Positions 2,836 to 62,048 of a DNA stretch of 64,000 bases are shown here, piece by piece; position 1 is the stretch's first letter; each line of letters opens with the position of its first letter. The position numbers and the translations under genes are program-made. The stretch lies in contig RECY01000026.1 in assembly GCA_007693785.1 (NCBI GenBank), forward strand, positions 124,001 through 188,000, read 5' to 3'. The notes under the pieces were generated by a model. That model was given only the letters and a program-made list of their open reading frames with translations. It searched no databases and was not told where the DNA came from. This stretch comes from Phycisphaerales bacterium (GTDB lineage: Bacteria > Planctomycetota > Phycisphaerae > Phycisphaerales > UBA1924).

Positions 2836-2981
2836 GTGCCACTGACCTTGTCTGCAAGGTCAGTGCTCCGACTCTTCTCCGTCTTCACCGCTCCTTCGTC
2901 GTGGACCCTGATCTTCGCGGGTCTGAAGAGACACAAAGGGCGGCCCGGAGCATGGACTTCTCAGGAAGAGGTCCGTGGCAC
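2836..2981. repeat. Dispersed paired-hairpin element, copy A (146 bp)
   Basis: Both ends carry GTGCCAC / GTGGCAC in inverted orientation, and each end folds into its own hairpin. The left hairpin pairs CACTGACCTTG (2840-2850) with CAAGGTCAGTG (2855-2865), a perfect 11-bp stem with a 4-nt loop. The right one pairs GGACTTCT with AGAGGTCC near 2955-2975, including one G-U. Copy B (52605-52751) has the same ends and nearly the same length, and a third hairpin lies at 62015-62048. No ORF is evident inside. It sits between the PTPS-like gene and the phosphohexomutase gene and could be a non-autonomous mobile element or a REP/BIME-like repeat. Confidence 0.8.
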
Positions 2982-3040
2982 ACCCGGATCTGGCTCTTTG
3001 GCCCTTTGCATTACTGGCGATTTCCCCCCGGACCCCCTCC

Positions 3041-3080
3041 GTCGGCTGCGCCGACACCTCCCCCGCCGGGGCGGGGGAGG
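3041..3080. other. Two adjacent strong hairpins upstream of the phosphohexomutase gene
   Basis: GTCGGC-TGC-GCCGAC (3041-3055) is followed directly by CCTCCCCCGC-CGGG-GCGGGGGAGG (3057-3080), a perfect 10-bp GC stem. Neither is followed by a T run, so a simple intrinsic terminator is unlikely. With copy A they fill the 355-base spacer 2790-3144, where I recognise no other feature. They could be part of the phosphohexomutase mRNA leader or a dispersed intergenic repeat. Confidence 0.6.
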
Positions 3081-15469: not shown

Positions 15470-16213
15470 ATGAACCGTTTGACCGTGACCATGCTTGCCG
15501 TCGCCGCCGCGTCCGGCGTCGCCGCCGCCGACACCATCGATCTCGCCTACCTGGGCACGGGCCAGGGGCGTAACGTCCGCGTCACCCTCGATGGCAACAG
15601 CCAGAACGTCCACGCCGGGCAGCTCCGCCACGGCGCGACCAACGGCGTCGGCAACGGCGTCGAACTCGCCGGGCAGGCCCTCGTCACCTACTGCGCCGAC
15701 ATCAACCAGCTCGTCAGCTCCAGCAGCACCACCTACGAGCTCGTCAGTGTCAGCCTCCTGCCCAGCCCGAGCAGCGAGACCACCCCCACCGGCATGGGCA
15801 GCATCCGCGCCGCCGCCATCCAGAGCGTCTACGCCTACGCCAACGACGTCCTCGGCGGGCAGCACAGCGACCTCGGCACCAGCGACGCCTTCGCCACCGC
15901 CTTCCAGCTCGTCATCTGGGAGCTCGTCTACGACTACGACGGCACCGCCGGCAGCATCGACCTCACCAGCGGCGCCTTCCACGCCAGCCGCACCAACGGC
16001 TCCAGCCTCTGGGGTGACGTCCTCACCCACGCCAACGACCTCTTCCTCAACGGCGTCGGCTACAACCTCAACGCCATGAGCGTCGTCGGCCTCCGCAGCG
16101 GCACCCGCCAGGACCAGCTCGTCGAGATGAACGTCCCCATCATCCCCACCCCCACCGCCGCCGCCCTCGGGCTCGTCGGCCTCGGCGGCCTCGCCGCCCG
16201 TCGCCGCCGCTAA
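15470..16213 (+). CDS. Exported PEP-CTERM-like protein with thioester-domain-like motifs (paralogue 1)
   Basis: A 247-residue protein with signal peptide (about 1-20, ending VAAA-DT). Its C-terminal sorting tail has the planctomycete PEP-CTERM style: PTPTAAALGLVGLGGLAARRRR in two parts (228-239 and 240-247), i.e. a Pro motif, a hydrophobic helix and an Arg cluster, the kind processed by exosortase-like enzymes. The mature part has one Cys (Cys75, TYCADI) and a Gln146-L-V-I-W motif followed by ELVYDYDG. In thioester-forming adhesin domains a Cys and the Gln of a QxxIW motif cross-link; the layout here is similar, but this is inference. It is a tandem paralogue of the gene at 16636. Confidence 0.8.
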   Translation: MNRLTVTMLAVAAASGVAAADTIDLAYLGTGQGRNVRVTLDGNSQNVHAGQLRHGATNGVGNGVELAGQALVTYCADINQLVSSSSTTYELVSVSLLPSPSSETTPTGMGSIRAAAIQSVYAYANDVLGGQHSDLGTSDAFATAFQLVIWELVYDYDGTAGSIDLTSGAFHASRTNGSSLWGDVLTHANDLFLNGVGYNLNAMSVVGLRSGTRQDQLVEMNVPIIPTPTAAALGLVGLGGLAARRRR

Positions 16214-16238
16214 ACCCACACCCAAAGCACCACCACCC

Positions 16239-16272
16239 GCGAAGCCCGCAGCACACACGCTGCGGGCTTCGC
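16239..16272 (+). terminator. Perfect 14-bp inverted repeat after PEP-CTERM-like gene 1
   Basis: GCGAAGCCCGCAGC (16239-16252) and GCTGCGGGCTTCGC (16259-16272) pair perfectly around ACACAC. The trailing sequence (CACTTCTTC) is only moderately pyrimidine-rich, so it is terminator-like rather than a textbook terminator. It lies 25 bases beyond the stop codon. Confidence 0.65.
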
Positions 16273-16635
16273 CACTTCTTCAGCCCCCATGCACGACGTC
16301 GCTTCCACAATCACAAACTGCCTATTTTTCCAAACTGTCTGTAGCAACACGGATACGGTGGTCTTTCTGGAGCATCTACACACGCTTCCAGCCCCGACGT
16401 CCGGGAACGTCCGCTCTAAATAGGGGGGAGATGGAAAATCCGCATGAGAACGCCAGATTCTCGTAGACCCGGACAGTATCGCCGGTTATAGATATAGAGA
16501 GTGGATCCTCGGCAGTACGCCGTTGATCCGTGAGGGAGTCGAAATCCAGGCCGCTCAACCCGCGGCCGCGTGCAGTCAACCGGTTTGGGAGAACCGGGCC
16601 ACTGCTCGAAGCAATAGTCAGAGAGGGAAATACCC
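16273..16635. other. Spacer before PEP-CTERM-like gene 2
   Basis: 363 bases between the inverted repeat and the second paralogue. It is AT-richer than its surroundings (for example TCTAAATAG and TTATAGATATAGAGAG near 16415-16500) and probably holds a separate promoter. Small hairpins GGCCGC/GCGGCC near 16550 and CCGGTT/AACCGG near 16580-16600 could structure the leader. AGAGAGGGAAA before ATG 16636 is the likely ribosome-binding site. No riboswitch consensus was recognised. Confidence 0.4.
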
Positions 16636-17370
16636 ATGAATCGTTTGATCGCAGCAGTCGCCCTGTCGGCGTGCGCGGGCCTTGCCGCCGCGGACACCAT
16701 TGATCTCAGCTACCAAGGCACCCAGCGCGGCGGGAACTTCAACGTCACCGTCGATGGCAACACCAGCGGCACCTTCGCCGGGCAGATCCGCCAGAACCTT
16801 AGCAACGGCACCGGCATCGGCACCCAGTTCAACGGCCTCTCGGCCATCACCTACTGCGCCGACCTCGAGCAGCAGGTCTTCACCAACTCCGCCCCCATCA
16901 CCTACAACATCGTCGACCTCGCCACCATCCCCGAGCCGAGCTCCGTCGTCCCCGGTGGCATGGGACCCACCCGCGCCGCCGCCATTGAGAGCATCTACAG
17001 CTACTCCCGGAACGTGCTCGGCTTCGACCTCTCCAGCGCCTCACTCGCGAACAGCTTCGCCGGCGCCTTCCAGCTCGTCATCTGGGAAATCGTCTACGAC
17101 TACGACGGCACCCTCGCCAGCCTCGACATCACCAGTGGCGACTTCAGCGCCACTCAGACCAACGGCAACCCCCTCACCGCCGCCGTCCAAGGATGGGTCG
17201 ATGACCTCATCAACAACGGCGTCACCTACAACGTCAACGCCAACAACCTCCTCGGCCTCTACAGCGACACGTACCAGGATCAGATCATCACGATCGTGAT
17301 CCCGACCCCGACCGCCGCCGCCTTGGGTCTCCTCGGCCTCGCCGGCGTCGCCACCCGTCGCCGTCGCTAA
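16636..17370 (+). CDS. Exported PEP-CTERM-like protein with thioester-domain-like motifs (paralogue 2)
   Basis: A 244-residue paralogue of the upstream protein, colinear over its whole length. Signal peptide about 1-19 (GLAAA-DT). Cys74 lies in TYCADLEQQ, Gln146 in AFQLVIWEIVYDYDG, and the sorting tail is IPTPTAAALGLLGLAG...RRRR. The Cys and Gln positions match paralogue 1 almost exactly (75/146 against 74/146), although the sequence around them has diverged, which suggests both residues are constrained. Cys13 of the signal peptide should be removed. It has its own spacer and a strong terminator, so it is probably transcribed separately. Localisation is expected to be at the cell surface or outer membrane; binding partner unknown. 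Confidence 0.8.
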   Translation: MNRLIAAVALSACAGLAAADTIDLSYQGTQRGGNFNVTVDGNTSGTFAGQIRQNLSNGTGIGTQFNGLSAITYCADLEQQVFTNSAPITYNIVDLATIPEPSSVVPGGMGPTRAAAIESIYSYSRNVLGFDLSSASLANSFAGAFQLVIWEIVYDYDGTLASLDITSGDFSATQTNGNPLTAAVQGWVDDLINNGVTYNVNANNLLGLYSDTYQDQIITIVIPTPTAAALGLLGLAGVATRRRR

Positions 17371-17398
17371 TCCGACACGCGATCAGCCTTGATTCCAA

Positions 17399-19985: not shown

Positions 19986-21143
19986 ATGCCCGTCCCGCCA
20001 GCCGCCCGACTCACGCGCCCCGCGCTGCTCGCGTTCCTGCTCGCCGGGGGCGTCGCCGCCCCGAGCGCGGCCCAGACCTTCGACTTCGACCGCCCGCAGC
20101 ACGACCGCTGGCACTATCCCTTCAACGGCACCCCCGGCTCCCGCCTCACCGCGAGCACCTTCCTCTACGTCGGTCCCCCCGGCTTCAACAACCGCGACGG
20201 CGCGTTCATCATCGTCTGGAACACCGCGGCCCTGATCCCCCCGGGGCAGGACCCTGAGGACTACAACCTCGCCGAGCTGCGCGTCACGCTGACCAACGAG
20301 GCCGGGGCCGAGTGGGAGATCGACCTGACCACCGACGAGTGGTTCACCCAAGTCCCCGGCGTCGGCGGCGACGACACCGACCCCGGGCAGCCCATCGAGC
20401 TCTTCGGCGTCGGCTTCGGGCCCACCTACACCGAGCCCGTCCCCGGCACCGCCAACCCCTGGAACGAGTTCAGCCCCTACATCGGCTCCGACTCCCTCGC
20501 CGACATCCCCCGAGACCCCTACCCCTTCGTCTACCAGGACGAGACCGGCGACCGCCTCCGCGTTGAAGACCACGTCGCCGGGCTCTGGAACGACCAACTC
20601 GAAGAACCCGTCACCAGCTTCACGCCCATCGCCTGGGCGATCGGCAACCCCCAGAACTACACCCCCGGCAACCAACCCGTCCCCTTCGACGTCGTGTTCG
20701 ATGTCGACCTGACGCTCTCCGACGGGCTCGTGCGCGCGTACTTCCAAGATCAGCTCAGCAAGGGCTATCTCGCCGTCATCGTCACCAGCTTCCAGCCCTC
20801 GGTCATGTTCGGCCCCAGCAACAGCTTCGGCTCCTTCTACACCAAAGAAGGCGCCGACTTCGCCGCCGACCCCAGCGTCCGCGCCCCGCGCCTCGCCGTC
20901 ACCCTCGCCGACGCCACCCCCGACTGCCCCGCGGACATCACCGGGCCCGCGCTCGACGGCGTCCCCGACGGAGCCGTCACCATCGCGGATCTCAACTTCT
21001 ACCTCACCCTCTGGCTCGACAACGACCCGCAGGCCGACATCACCGGGCCCGCGCTCGACGGCGTCCCCGACGGAGCCGTCACCATCGCGGACCTCAACTT
21101 CTACATCGACCTCTGGATCAACACGCAGGGCGCGTGCCCTTAA
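19986..21143 (+). CDS. Exported GC-type dockerin protein, 385 aa
   Basis: Signal peptide about 1-29 (LLAFLLAGGVAAPSAAQ). A beta-rich domain of about 280 residues follows (starting FDFDRPQHDRWHYPF), which I do not recognise. The C-terminus is a dockerin made of two near-identical repeats (DITGPALDGVPDGAVTIADL twice) bracketed by Cys in PDCPAD and GACP. Each repeat carries an EF-hand-like Asp loop. The two repeat units are almost identical at DNA level (see repeat 20934-21104). ATG 19986 begins the signal peptide; frames further upstream overlap the divergent zinc-ribbon gene. A strong terminator follows. Confidence 0.78.
   Translation: MPVPPAARLTRPALLAFLLAGGVAAPSAAQTFDFDRPQHDRWHYPFNGTPGSRLTASTFLYVGPPGFNNRDGAFIIVWNTAALIPPGQDPEDYNLAELRVTLTNEAGAEWEIDLTTDEWFTQVPGVGGDDTDPGQPIELFGVGFGPTYTEPVPGTANPWNEFSPYIGSDSLADIPRDPYPFVYQDETGDRLRVEDHVAGLWNDQLEEPVTSFTPIAWAIGNPQNYTPGNQPVPFDVVFDVDLTLSDGLVRAYFQDQLSKGYLAVIVTSFQPSVMFGPSNSFGSFYTKEGADFAADPSVRAPRLAVTLADATPDCPADITGPALDGVPDGAVTIADLNFYLTLWLDNDPQADITGPALDGVPDGAVTIADLNFYIDLWINTQGACP
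20934..21104 (+). repeat. Direct repeat of 69 nt encoding the two dockerin halves
   Basis: Units 20934-21002 and 21036-21104 differ at one base (GAT against GAC, both Asp). The spacing is 102 bases, so the protein repeat period is 34 residues. Dockerin halves in the neighbouring genes are far less alike, so this copy was probably duplicated or homogenised recently. Confidence 0.92.
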
Positions 21144-21182
21144 CCGGCGCAACCCCCGCCCGCGCAGAAATCCTTCCGCATC

Positions 21183-21211
21183 ACCCCGCCGCCTCGCGAC
21201 GGGGTTTTTTT
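21183..21211 (+). terminator. Intrinsic terminator after the dockerin gene
   Basis: ACCCCG (21183-21188) pairs with CGGGGT (21200-21205), followed by a run of seven T (21205-21211). It is 40 bases past the stop. Confidence 0.8.
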
Positions 21212-21320
21212 ATGCGCCCGCGTTGCGCCCGCCCCCGGGTGCCGACTCCTGAATCGCCCGGCTCACCGGAGCCCGGTGCATCACGACACACCCCGCCCAT
21301 CCGGACACGGAGTCATCATC

Positions 21321-22346
21321 ATGCCCGCTCGCACCCCGCTCGCGCTCTGCACGCTCGCCCTCCTCGCAGGCGCACCCCTCGCCGCCCACGCGCAACTGCT
21401 CCGCGCGAGCTCCGAGACCGTCGCGTTCATCTTCGACCCCGACGGGAACATCGAGAACAGCAACGACCAGTTTTTTGAGGCCGACGACCTGCCCTATTTC
21501 GTCGTCGGCTCCCGGCACGGAGGCTCCGTCACCCGCGGCGGCGGGCAGACCTCCGGATCCGCGGCCATCGGCATGGGCTACATCCGCACCAATTCCCGAA
21601 CCAGTGGCTTCATCCTCAACTTCGGATCGCTCTCCTCGTGGACCAGCGCCTCGTTCGAAGACTCGATCCTCTTCGAAGACCCCACCATCCCCAACGGCAC
21701 GCCCGGGGCCGCCACGCTCGCGATCACCTTCACCCACGCCCAGGGCTTCGGCGGGCCCGGGCTCCTCGACGGCACCTCCGCCACGCTCCAAACCTCTGCG
21801 AGCATGGTCGTCCGCATCAACGGAAATATTGTTGTTCAAGAGAGCATCCAGGGCGGTTTCGTCGGTTTCGACACCTTCATCAACGGCGAGATCCCGGAGC
21901 AGATCCTCGTCCCCGTCAACTTCGTCTACGGCACGCCCTTCACGCTCCGCGTCCAAGCTTCGACGGATAGCCGCATGGACTCCGACGGCGGGGGCGTGCA
22001 GGGCTACGCCTTCAACACCTTCCCCACCAGCGTCCGCACGCAGGGTTTCCAGGATCTCCCCCCGACCACCACCGTCACGGGCACGATCGATTGGACCCAG
22101 CCCGCGCCGGTCGTCCCGGATCTAGAGTGCCGCGCCGATCTCACCGGGGCCGCCCTCGACGGCGAGCCCGACGGCGTTGTCAGCACCGCCGACCTCAACT
22201 ATTACATCACCCTCTGGCTCGCGGACGACCCGGCCGCCGACCTCGCCGGCCCCGACGGGCAAGGCGTCCCCGACGGGCTCGTCACCATCACCGATCTCAA
22301 CTTCTACGTGAACCGCTGGCTCGGGGCGCTGGGCGAGTGCCTGTAG
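21321..22346 (+). CDS. Exported GC-type dockerin protein, paralogue 1 (341 aa)
   Basis: Signal peptide about 1-25 (LALLAGAPLAAHAQ). A beta-sandwich-like domain of about 230 residues has the recognisable segments SFEADDLPYFVVG-type (here FFEADDLPYFVVG), HGGSVTRGGG, SAAIGMGYIRTNS and FEDPTIPNGTPG. A dockerin follows at about 272-341, bracketed by LECRADL and GECL. The next gene encodes a protein of exactly the same length and domain order, so this is a tandem duplication. The 57-base gap suggests both are on one transcript. The domain family and binding partner are unknown. Confidence 0.78.
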   Translation: MPARTPLALCTLALLAGAPLAAHAQLLRASSETVAFIFDPDGNIENSNDQFFEADDLPYFVVGSRHGGSVTRGGGQTSGSAAIGMGYIRTNSRTSGFILNFGSLSSWTSASFEDSILFEDPTIPNGTPGAATLAITFTHAQGFGGPGLLDGTSATLQTSASMVVRINGNIVVQESIQGGFVGFDTFINGEIPEQILVPVNFVYGTPFTLRVQASTDSRMDSDGGGVQGYAFNTFPTSVRTQGFQDLPPTTTVTGTIDWTQPAPVVPDLECRADLTGAALDGEPDGVVSTADLNYYITLWLADDPAADLAGPDGQGVPDGLVTITDLNFYVNRWLGALGECL

Positions 22347-22403
22347 CCCGTTCTGCGACACCGCAACGGAACCGATCCCGCCACAGGCATTGGAGAACCA
22401 CAC

Positions 22404-23429
22404 ATGCGCACATACGCCACGCTCACCATTGCCGCGATCGTGCTGTCGGCCGGCGCGCCCGCCGACGCCCAACTGCTCCGCGCGCAATCCACCACCAGCG
22501 CGTTCGTCCAGGACCCGGACGGCAACATCAGCAACAGCACGTCGCAATCGTTCGAGGCCGACGACCTCCCGTACTTCGTGGTCGGCACGCGCCACGGCGG
22601 CTCGGTCACACGCGGCGGCGGGCGGACCTCCGGATCCGCGGCCGTCGGCATGGGCTACATCCGAACCAACTCCAGTGCCAGCGGCTTCATGTACACCTTC
22701 GGGGATCTCGGCTCGCGGACCAACGCCTCGTTCCAAGACCAGCTCCTCTTCGAAGACCCGAACATTCCGAACGGCACGCCCGGGTTCATCACGCTCCCCA
22801 TCCGCGTCGTCCACGCGCAAGGCTCCGGCGGGTCGGGCGTGATCGACGGCGGCTGCTTCGGCAGCATCGGCTCCGGCGCCTCGATCGAGATCGTCGTCGG
22901 TAGCGTTGGCTTCCTCAGCGAGTTTCAAAGCACACGCCGAGACTGCGACAACAACTACATCGCCACGGGCGAGATCCCAAGTGAGATCCTCGTCCCGATC
23001 AATTTCATCTACGGCACGCCTGTCGAGCTGCTCGTCGTCGTCACCACAGAAGCCGGCATGAGCAGCGACGGCGCGCTCGTGCAAGGCTTCGCCTACTCCA
23101 CCTTCCCGTCGAGCATCCGCGCGATGGGGCTTCAGGATCTGCCCGACACCACCACCGTCAGCGGCACGATCGACTGGACGCTGCCCGCGCCCGTCGTCCC
23201 CGATATCGAGTGCAGCGCCGACCTCAGCGGGCCGGAACTCGACGGCGAGCCCGACGGCGTCGTCGATACGGCCGATCTGAACTATTTCATCACACTCTGG
23301 CTCGCGAGCGACCCAGCCGCCGACCTCGCCAGCGCCGACGGGCAAGGCGTCCCCGACGGGCTCGTCACCATCACCGATCTCAACTTCTACGTGAACCGCT
23401 GGCTCGACGCCCAAGGGGGCTGCCTGTAG
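22404..23429 (+). CDS. Exported GC-type dockerin protein, paralogue 2 (341 aa)
   Basis: The tandem partner of the gene at 21321. Signal peptide about 1-22 (IVLSAGAPADAQ), then the same beta-rich domain (LLRAQSTTSAFVQDPDGN, FEADDLPYFVVGTRHGGS, FEDPNIPNGTPG). It contains two extra cysteines (GGCFGS and RRDCDN) that paralogue 1 lacks, which could form a disulfide. The dockerin is bracketed by IECSADL and GGCL. The dockerin second half (VPDGLVTITDLNFYVNRWL) is identical in the two paralogues, whereas the N-terminal domain has diverged. It converges with the methyltransferase gene, 18 bases away. Confidence 0.78.
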   Translation: MRTYATLTIAAIVLSAGAPADAQLLRAQSTTSAFVQDPDGNISNSTSQSFEADDLPYFVVGTRHGGSVTRGGGRTSGSAAVGMGYIRTNSSASGFMYTFGDLGSRTNASFQDQLLFEDPNIPNGTPGFITLPIRVVHAQGSGGSGVIDGGCFGSIGSGASIEIVVGSVGFLSEFQSTRRDCDNNYIATGEIPSEILVPINFIYGTPVELLVVVTTEAGMSSDGALVQGFAYSTFPSSIRAMGLQDLPDTTTVSGTIDWTLPAPVVPDIECSADLSGPELDGEPDGVVDTADLNYFITLWLASDPAADLASADGQGVPDGLVTITDLNFYVNRWLDAQGGCL

Positions 23430-52604: not shown

Positions 52605-52751
52605 GTGCCACTGATCTTGTCCGCAAGGTCGGTGCTCCCCGGCCCCACTTCCCATCCTCCCCCGCTCCCCACGCCCCAAACTCAGCAACAAATCAGCAAA
52701 GAAGAGCAGGAAGATCAGGAGCACGGACCTCTCAGAAGAGGTCAGTGGCAC
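52605..52751. repeat. Dispersed paired-hairpin element, copy B (147 bp)
   Basis: The left hairpin is at 52605-52638: CACTGATCTTG pairs with CAAGGTCGGTG, two of the eleven pairs being G-U on the plus strand. The right hairpin is at 52718-52751, with stem GACCTCT/AGAGGTC. Ends, orientation and length match copy A at 2836, and even the flanks agree (CCCT before, ACCCG after), while the interior does not. No ORF inside. The spacer otherwise separates the PDZ gene and the anti-sigma-factor-like gene. Confidence 0.8.
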
Positions 52752-61917: not shown

Positions 61918-62048
61918 GTGCCATGGAAACGCGGAGGCGGGCTTCTGAGCCCGGCGGAGCTTTTCCATGCCGGGTGAGGACGGCGCAGGGAGGTTTTGAG
62001 GCGGAGGGAGTGGGGGAGCACTGACCTCTCGGAAGAGGTCAGTGGCAC
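61918..62048. repeat. Dispersed hairpin element, third occurrence
   Basis: The right end 62015-62048 has the family hairpin: CACTGACCTCT (62019-62029), loop CGGA, AGAGGTCAGTG (62034-62044), flanked by GGAG and GCAC as in copies A and B. The left end is uncertain: GTGCCATGG at 61918 begins a different 46-base imperfect hairpin. The spacer 61825-62115 has no gene I can support. Confidence is high for the right hairpin, low for the left boundary. Confidence 0.65.

Follow-up and report, generated by a model that had tools for sequence, protein, structure and literature searches.

GTGC-tagged hairpin doublets of a Phycisphaerales genome as REPIN-type elements, probably mobilised by a RAYT transposase

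Two intergenic hairpin doublets, copies A and B, in a 64,000-nucleotide stretch of DNA from a Phycisphaerales bacterium (the window) are best read as REPIN-type elements, each comprising two inverted REP-like hairpins (approximately 34 nt) and a variable spacer, inserted between genes. Such a unit would have been copied as a whole via single-stranded DNA by a RAYT, a TnpA_REP-type tyrosine transposase (HUH, Y1), and a probability of about 85% is given to this reading, in which we infer the movement itself from the distribution and make-up of the copies. The observations behind it are the copy number, the inward pairing, the heterotypic ends, the intergenic sites, and the sharing of spacers across different flanks, together with the absence of an element at one orthologous gene pair, the linkage to a RAYT gene in UBA1926, and a correlation between hairpin tag and protein type. 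The RAYT would cut the hairpins of this family (family 1), with the GTGC at their 5' foot acting as the guide in place of the canonical GT[AG]G. The earlier note's reading of a non-autonomous mobile element or a bipartite REP/BIME unit is supported, the element being a REPIN-type doublet.

Copy A (2836..2981, plus strand, 146 bp; L094_2037) is built from a T-type arm, a 77-nt spacer, and an inverted C-type arm. Its left hairpin, with the T loop (2836..2869, plus strand), bears the GTGC tag, reads GTGC, CACTGACCTTG, TCTG, CAAGGTCAGTG, and CTCC in succession, and folds with a z of -6.0; the right hairpin, with the C loop (2947..2981, minus strand), has a damaged stem (z -0.9). Copy B (52605..52751, plus strand, 147 bp; L095_2006) likewise carries a T-type arm on the left (52605..52638, plus strand, z -3.0) and a C-type arm on the right (52718..52751, minus strand, z -3.9), both of them pattern matches, the latter reading on the other strand as GTGC, CACTGACCTCT, TCTG, AGAGGTCCGTG, and CTCC. 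Given these arm sequences, the two hairpins of each copy point towards one another, GTGC lying on the outer side and CTCC on the inner. A third hairpin (62015..62048, minus strand, z -5.3; L096) is a lone C-type arm of family 1 for which no partner was found. All three lie where the earlier note had placed them, and the GTGCCAC...GTGGCAC ends of A and B, preceded by CCCT and followed by ACCCG, are likewise as it described. When folded alone as DNA, the whole elements gave z values of -3.3 (copy A) and -2.7 (copy B).

Copy A separates two divergent genes, one for a 6-pyruvoyl tetrahydropterin synthase (queD) and one of the phosphoglucomutase family (glmM); copy B is intergenic and adjoins a gene for a PDZ-domain protein, and the third hairpin has a MoxR-like AAA gene on one side and a gene for an ABC-2 permease on the other. 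An Rfam scan of the window at the gathering threshold returned one tRNA and no match on the element. The window also holds one arm of a second REPIN family (GTGCCATGGAAACGCGGAGG...GGAGCTTTTCCATG; 61918..61969, plus strand, match C13:185918-185938) and repeats of another sort, namely two paralogous genes at 15470-17378 (repeat D6), the ends of which read like PEP-CTERM sorting signals, and three adjacent paralogous genes at 19986-23429 with repeated C-terminal segments of approximately 87 nt (D1-D3).

A search of the 3.06 Mb genome at up to three mismatches yielded 114 matches to the family-1 hairpin and none to the reversed pattern; the family is not confined to the three copies of the window, and it lies mostly in inward-facing pairs, not at random unpaired spacing. 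From 54 stretches (L067-L120) fetched around the family-1 matches listed, a looser hairpin search produced 119 candidates, of which 117 were kept after the chance matches L100_1143 and L113_1765 had been dropped, so that the genome holds at least 117 hairpins, a figure that leaves out a further hairpin on contig C23 and a doublet at the start of L230. The hairpin scan also placed family-1 hairpins at the ends of contigs C23, C6, and C43. The doublet of L230 (G000:C23:1-4000), situated at the contig end, has the stem CACGGACC...GGTCCGTG, changed on both sides and close to the stem found beside the RAYT of genome G028.

Two loop types account for nearly all arms among the matches listed, T (TTGTCYGCAA) in 65 and C (CTCTTCYGAGAG) in 51, with one hairpin unassigned, and the base T precedes the tag in 108 of the 117. 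Neighbouring hairpins no more than 300 bp apart form 48 pairs among these matches (45 inward, two outward, and one direct), against an expectation of 1.3 (maximum 6) for random placement and of 8.4 (maximum 19) when placement is restricted to 14% of the genome. A T arm is joined to a C arm in 41 of the 45 doublets listed, the best of 20,000 shuffles reaching 35. Doublets among the matches listed range from 68 to 303 bp, with 33 of the 45 measuring 126-150 bp, and 27 of the 117 hairpins listed have no inward partner. Better conservation of arms within doublets was considered as a further mark of REPINs and dropped, the mean mismatches being 0.75 for doublet arms and 0.67 for unpaired hairpins (p 0.94), in a comparison that leaves out seven length variants and is biased in that unpaired hairpins were limited to three mismatches and partners were sought more loosely.

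Among the matches listed, 26 of the 990 pairs of spacers attained a local alignment score of at least 30, a range in which shuffled spacers never appeared (none reached 20), and both flanks scored below 30 in 23 of these 26, nested repeats contributing much to four of them. The spacer of copy A scores 53 with that of L093 and 27 with that of L088, and for the spacer of copy B the best partners are L118 (score 39), L082 (38), and L097 (36); the interiors of A and B differ, as had been noticed from the window, because the two copies belong to different spacer subfamilies. A score of 30 was reached by five of the 990 left-flank pairs and by 48 of the 990 right-flank pairs among the matches listed, the latter because approximately ten copies adjoin one dispersed repeat (ATCCGGATCTGGCCCTTTGGCCC...), most of their spacers being different; this repeat may represent a preferred target or a later exchange. 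With the T arm set to the left, CCCT is the commonest left flank (12/45) and ATCC the commonest right flank (17/45) of the copies listed, and the common flanks of A and B are therefore largely a family feature. Two family-1 units (L073 and L104) enclose units of the second REPIN family, and L089, L098, and L107_5305 enclose hairpins of a third type (GTGCCACGGCTTGG...). Folding of the spacer alone was discarded as support for the REPIN reading, as spacers fold no better than flanks: z fell below -1 in 19% of spacers and 42% of flanks (42 values, one undefined), the flank control having palindromes in approximately ten copies.

A dispersed inverted repeat, CAAAGGGCCAGAGGGCCAGATCGG / CCGATCTGGCCCTCTGGCCCTTTG, is found at window 2986-3008 and at 18 places in G000; approximately ten family-1 copies adjoin it, several in the same phase. 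A palindromic block, CCCTCCGTCGGCTGCGCCGACACCTCCCCCGCC...GGGGGAGG (window 3034-3079), adjoins several other repeats of the genome and carries CGTC beside a hairpin, which recalls the CGTC-tagged superfamily by resemblance only.

A genome-wide search recovered a single RAYT match in the genome under study (C13:27155-27610; NF047646, 106.5 bits, cut-off 80), which lies between two doublets of the second REPIN family (family 2, GTGCCCCGG.../GTG[CG]CATGG..., with 107 matches in this genome). No RAYT flanked by family-1 hairpins was found in this genome by that search, and family 1 looks orphaned since the only RAYT found is flanked by family 2. The protein matches the structure 4er8 (E 1.2e-7), which we take to be the E. 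coli TnpA_REP protein, and residues H57, H59, Y132, and N136 are invariant among 12 aligned RAYTs. The base before the family-2 tag is G in most examples, yet T precedes one arm beside the RAYT, so that this base is not a clean separator of the two families.

The linkage missing at home is seen in UBA1926 (L246, titled Phycisphaerales), where a RAYT gene has family-1 hairpins (stem CACTGACC) on both sides: one flank bears an inverted pair, the other an inverted pair plus one more hairpin. The gene holds an N stretch, and the two portions that can be read reach 70 and 24 bits, under the cut-off of 80. The check suggested in the earlier note, to look for a RAYT gene using such ends, turned up a RAYT flanked by the family-1 hairpin in UBA1926, and in the genome itself one flanked by a different REPIN family. 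A scan of the GTDB r220 species genomes, a set that may omit records very near the present genome, found the exact hairpin form in 17 stretches, all titled Phycisphaera, Phycisphaerales, Phycisphaerae, or Planctomycetota. When the loop was allowed to vary, matches numbered 115 in NORP138, 18 in UBA1926, nine in UBA7812, and two to four in each of four other genomes, with 82 in the genome under study and none in G028. The doublets of NORP138 are shorter, their arms being separated by approximately 50 bp, and in many of them the two arms differ in loop type. Five of the seven other hairpin-bearing genomes have a RAYT match, and a family-1 hairpin flanks it only in UBA1926; NORP138, with its 115 hairpin copies, has three RAYT matches, none flanked by a family-1 hairpin. 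The RAYT of G028 is flanked by GTGCCACGGACCTTGC...AAGGTCCGTG, the stem of which is similar to family 1.

The RAYT that spread family 1 would be either one that the genome has lost, or that the assembly (95.5% complete) fails to include, or else the RAYT of family 2 acting in trans. The second option, which keeps the same REPIN element and dispenses with a lost cognate RAYT, is possible but rather doubtful. Both families carry GTGC tags and form doublets of two arm types, the family-2 RAYT is the sole one found in the genome, and family-2 units sit nested in two family-1 units; however, the two families have different stems, every tnpA_REP goes with a REP family of its own according to PMC6006769, and a family-1 hairpin adjoins a RAYT in UBA1926.

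RAYT matches are common in this planctomycete class: at E 0.001 they occur in 171 of the 198 genomes, and in 103 they exceed the cut-off. Locus L208 (G130:C1:2613300-2620800) has four RAYT matches within approximately 5 kb, three of them at intervals of 1,578 bp, and ten counts of GTGC hairpins, and looks as if a RAYT had been amplified in tandem together with its hairpins. A RAYT-like group of nine loci from the family and order (L054, L057, L059, L063, L064, L135, L138, L140, and L144; support 100/98) shows no repeated GTGC hairpins, and several of its members lie in unusually long open frames.

With regard to placement, no hairpin among the 117 listed extends more than 15 bp into a gene called by a home-made codon-usage caller, although approximately 81% of the stretches is coding, and the 115 listed hairpins with both neighbours lie between tandem (52), convergent (39), or divergent (24) genes. 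Relatives were searched for empty sites, as the earlier note had proposed, and copy A proved absent from the queD-glmM gap of three genomes of the same family. This gap measures 355 bp with copy A and 124, 137, and 264 bp in G006, G009, and G013, with gene starts set by eye from match positions; the copy A hairpin was not found in the same divergent gene pair of any of the three, the G009 gap having one 12-base half match with three mismatches and no hairpin. A queD-like motif stands upstream of glmM in five of the 29 loci of relatives, of which these three were compared and L284 and L291 were left out, the genomes of the latter two (G017 and G048) giving no hairpin match. The hairpin is nearly absent from 60 relatives, all of other genera, five of which have a single match each, at three mismatches.

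The position of the listed hairpins outside called genes, with 39 of the 115 between convergent genes, would also suit immobile hairpins formed on the spot to terminate transcription or stabilise mRNA, and such roles have been proposed for REPs (PMC3733652). This explanation is nonetheless unlikely given the 24 of 115 listed hairpins between divergent genes, copy A included, the inward heterotypic pairing, the spacers common to copies in different flanks, and the three relatives that lack copy A between the corresponding genes. Termination as the sole function is disfavoured by the hairpins between divergent genes, and a secondary host role is possible. Weaker still, to the point of being highly improbable, is a MITE belonging to a DDE-type insertion sequence, a reading in which GTGCCAC...GTGGCAC would be terminal inverted repeats and the cutting enzyme a DDE transposase, and which would account for the inverted ends, the length of approximately 146 bp, and the dispersal, but not for ends that are themselves hairpins, spacers that vary across the family, a RAYT gene flanked by the hairpin in UBA1926, or the want of any target-site duplication, direct repeats of each length from 3 to 9 bp being found at the borders of 0/45 copies among the matches listed.

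The REPIN reading is further informed by a census of the tags that accompany planctomycete RAYTs, in which the hairpins collected were those present two or more times per RAYT locus on an identical foot, the four bases before the stem being tallied with no preset tag. The 117-locus census tolerates a one-base shift of the foot and assigns protein types by short motifs allowing small variants; the loci examined are a part of the matches, picked by score, and the fractions refer to them. GGG-type RAYTs (about WQxGGG[YF]DR; 50 loci) have GTGC at 32 loci, GTGG at seven (two shared), GTAG at two, both beside GTGC, and none of the three tags at 13. EH-type RAYTs (about WQxRFYEH; 31 loci) have GTAG at 19, GTGC at none, and no such tag at 12. 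A third motif type (nine loci) gave GTGG twice, GTAG once, and no GTGC, RAYTs of other motifs (ten loci) gave GTGC and GTAG three times each, and the 17 loci without a protein by motif gave GTGC three times and GTGG and GTAG once each.

A RAYT tree drawn from 71 loci (64 proteins by motif, three wrong frames set aside, 61 used), with tag labels from the first census before the one-base foot shift, places 40 of the 61 in one group (support 96/94) with tags GTGC in 24, GTGG in five, and none in 11, GTGC and GTGG being intermixed within it in a tree whose bootstrap had not settled. Both GTAG RAYTs fall in a separate group of nine (support 92/85). In alignment, GGG-type proteins possess one residue more than 4er8 between WQ and the D/E-R/H pair, the RAYT of the present genome reading WQSGGGYDR against WQPR-FWEH in TnpA_REP. 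The TnpA_REP residues Q95, E100 or D100, and R104, which lie in this stretch, are described as contacting the guide or as conserved for it (PMC6006769, PMC8266576). The RAYTs beside GTGC hairpins form a group of their own, with one extra residue in the guide-contacting stretch, and it seems probable, with a fair share of doubt, that planctomycete RAYTs with the GGG[YF]DR loop constitute a TnpA_REP class apart, whose guide code has changed to GTGC (or, as a minor form, GTGG) together with a one-residue insertion, the present genome carrying at least two REPIN families of this sort.

A cut site was also sought. The IS608-like pairing model of PMC8266576, applied to GTGC, gives GC or GA, and this candidate was abandoned as it is CT that is over-represented 3' of GTGC hairpins, being present within +1..+5 at 53% of 43 loci, some of which overlap, against approximately 19% expected. 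The corresponding figures are 22% of 22 GTAG loci and 18% of 8 GTGG loci. The weight of the tag itself differs between TnpA_REP systems, according to the text of PMC8266576.

In comparison with known systems, family 1 agrees with REPINs as described by Bertels and Rainey in 2011 (PMC3116915) in its over-represented, inverted, and extragenic doublets with a variable spacer, and in the RAYT link, which for family 1 is seen in one other genome; in P. fluorescens, 93% of REP doublets are inverted (PMC3116915). It departs from that description in its GTGC tag, in having two arm types as a rule (41 of the 45 doublets listed), in doublets that were not found to be better conserved, in spacers for which no specific fold was seen, and in the lack of an adjacent RAYT in its own genome. 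Canonical REPs carry a GT[AG]G guide at the hairpin foot, and the foot of family 1 being GTGC, it is not filed among them. In E. coli the REPs that go with TnpA_REP, of types Y and Z, are likewise paired as different types in inverted orientation but are tagged GTAG (PMC6006769, PMC8266576). The palindromic repeats tagged GTAG or CGTC (PMC3733652), both superfamilies of which reportedly reach the Planctomycetes, resemble family 1 as short tagged stem-loops associated with RAYTs, although neither tag is borne by its hairpins. Class 3 TnpA_Y1 (PMC6006769), found mainly in Planctomycetes, also comprises Y1 transposases with multi-copy flanking structures, with the foot CnGA as opposed to GTGC.

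A search of open papers returned none on REP-associated tyrosine transposases or transposase-linked palindromes in Phycisphaera(les), and no relevant account of GTGC-tagged extragenic palindromes with a transposase. Among the main texts searched, supplements lying outside the search, GTGC as a word start is absent from PMC2817692, PMC3733652, PMC6006769, and PMC8266576, GTGC anywhere is absent from PMC6006769, and GTGCC is absent from PMC3733652; in PMC2817692 GTGC occurs inside REPs tagged TGTGG, GGTGG, or GGTAG. The remark in the earlier note that it knew of no described match is partly right: the kind, REPIN, is already known, and it is the GTGC tag in place of GT[AG]G that was not found in the texts searched.

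How TnpA_REP reads its tetranucleotide guide and chooses its cut site is unsettled in the account of PMC8266576. A natural group in which the guide and the guide-contacting stretch both differ would supply dozens of matched protein-DNA pairs for testing the code, and GTGC hairpins of the kind found in this genome would escape any search made for GT[AG]G tags alone.
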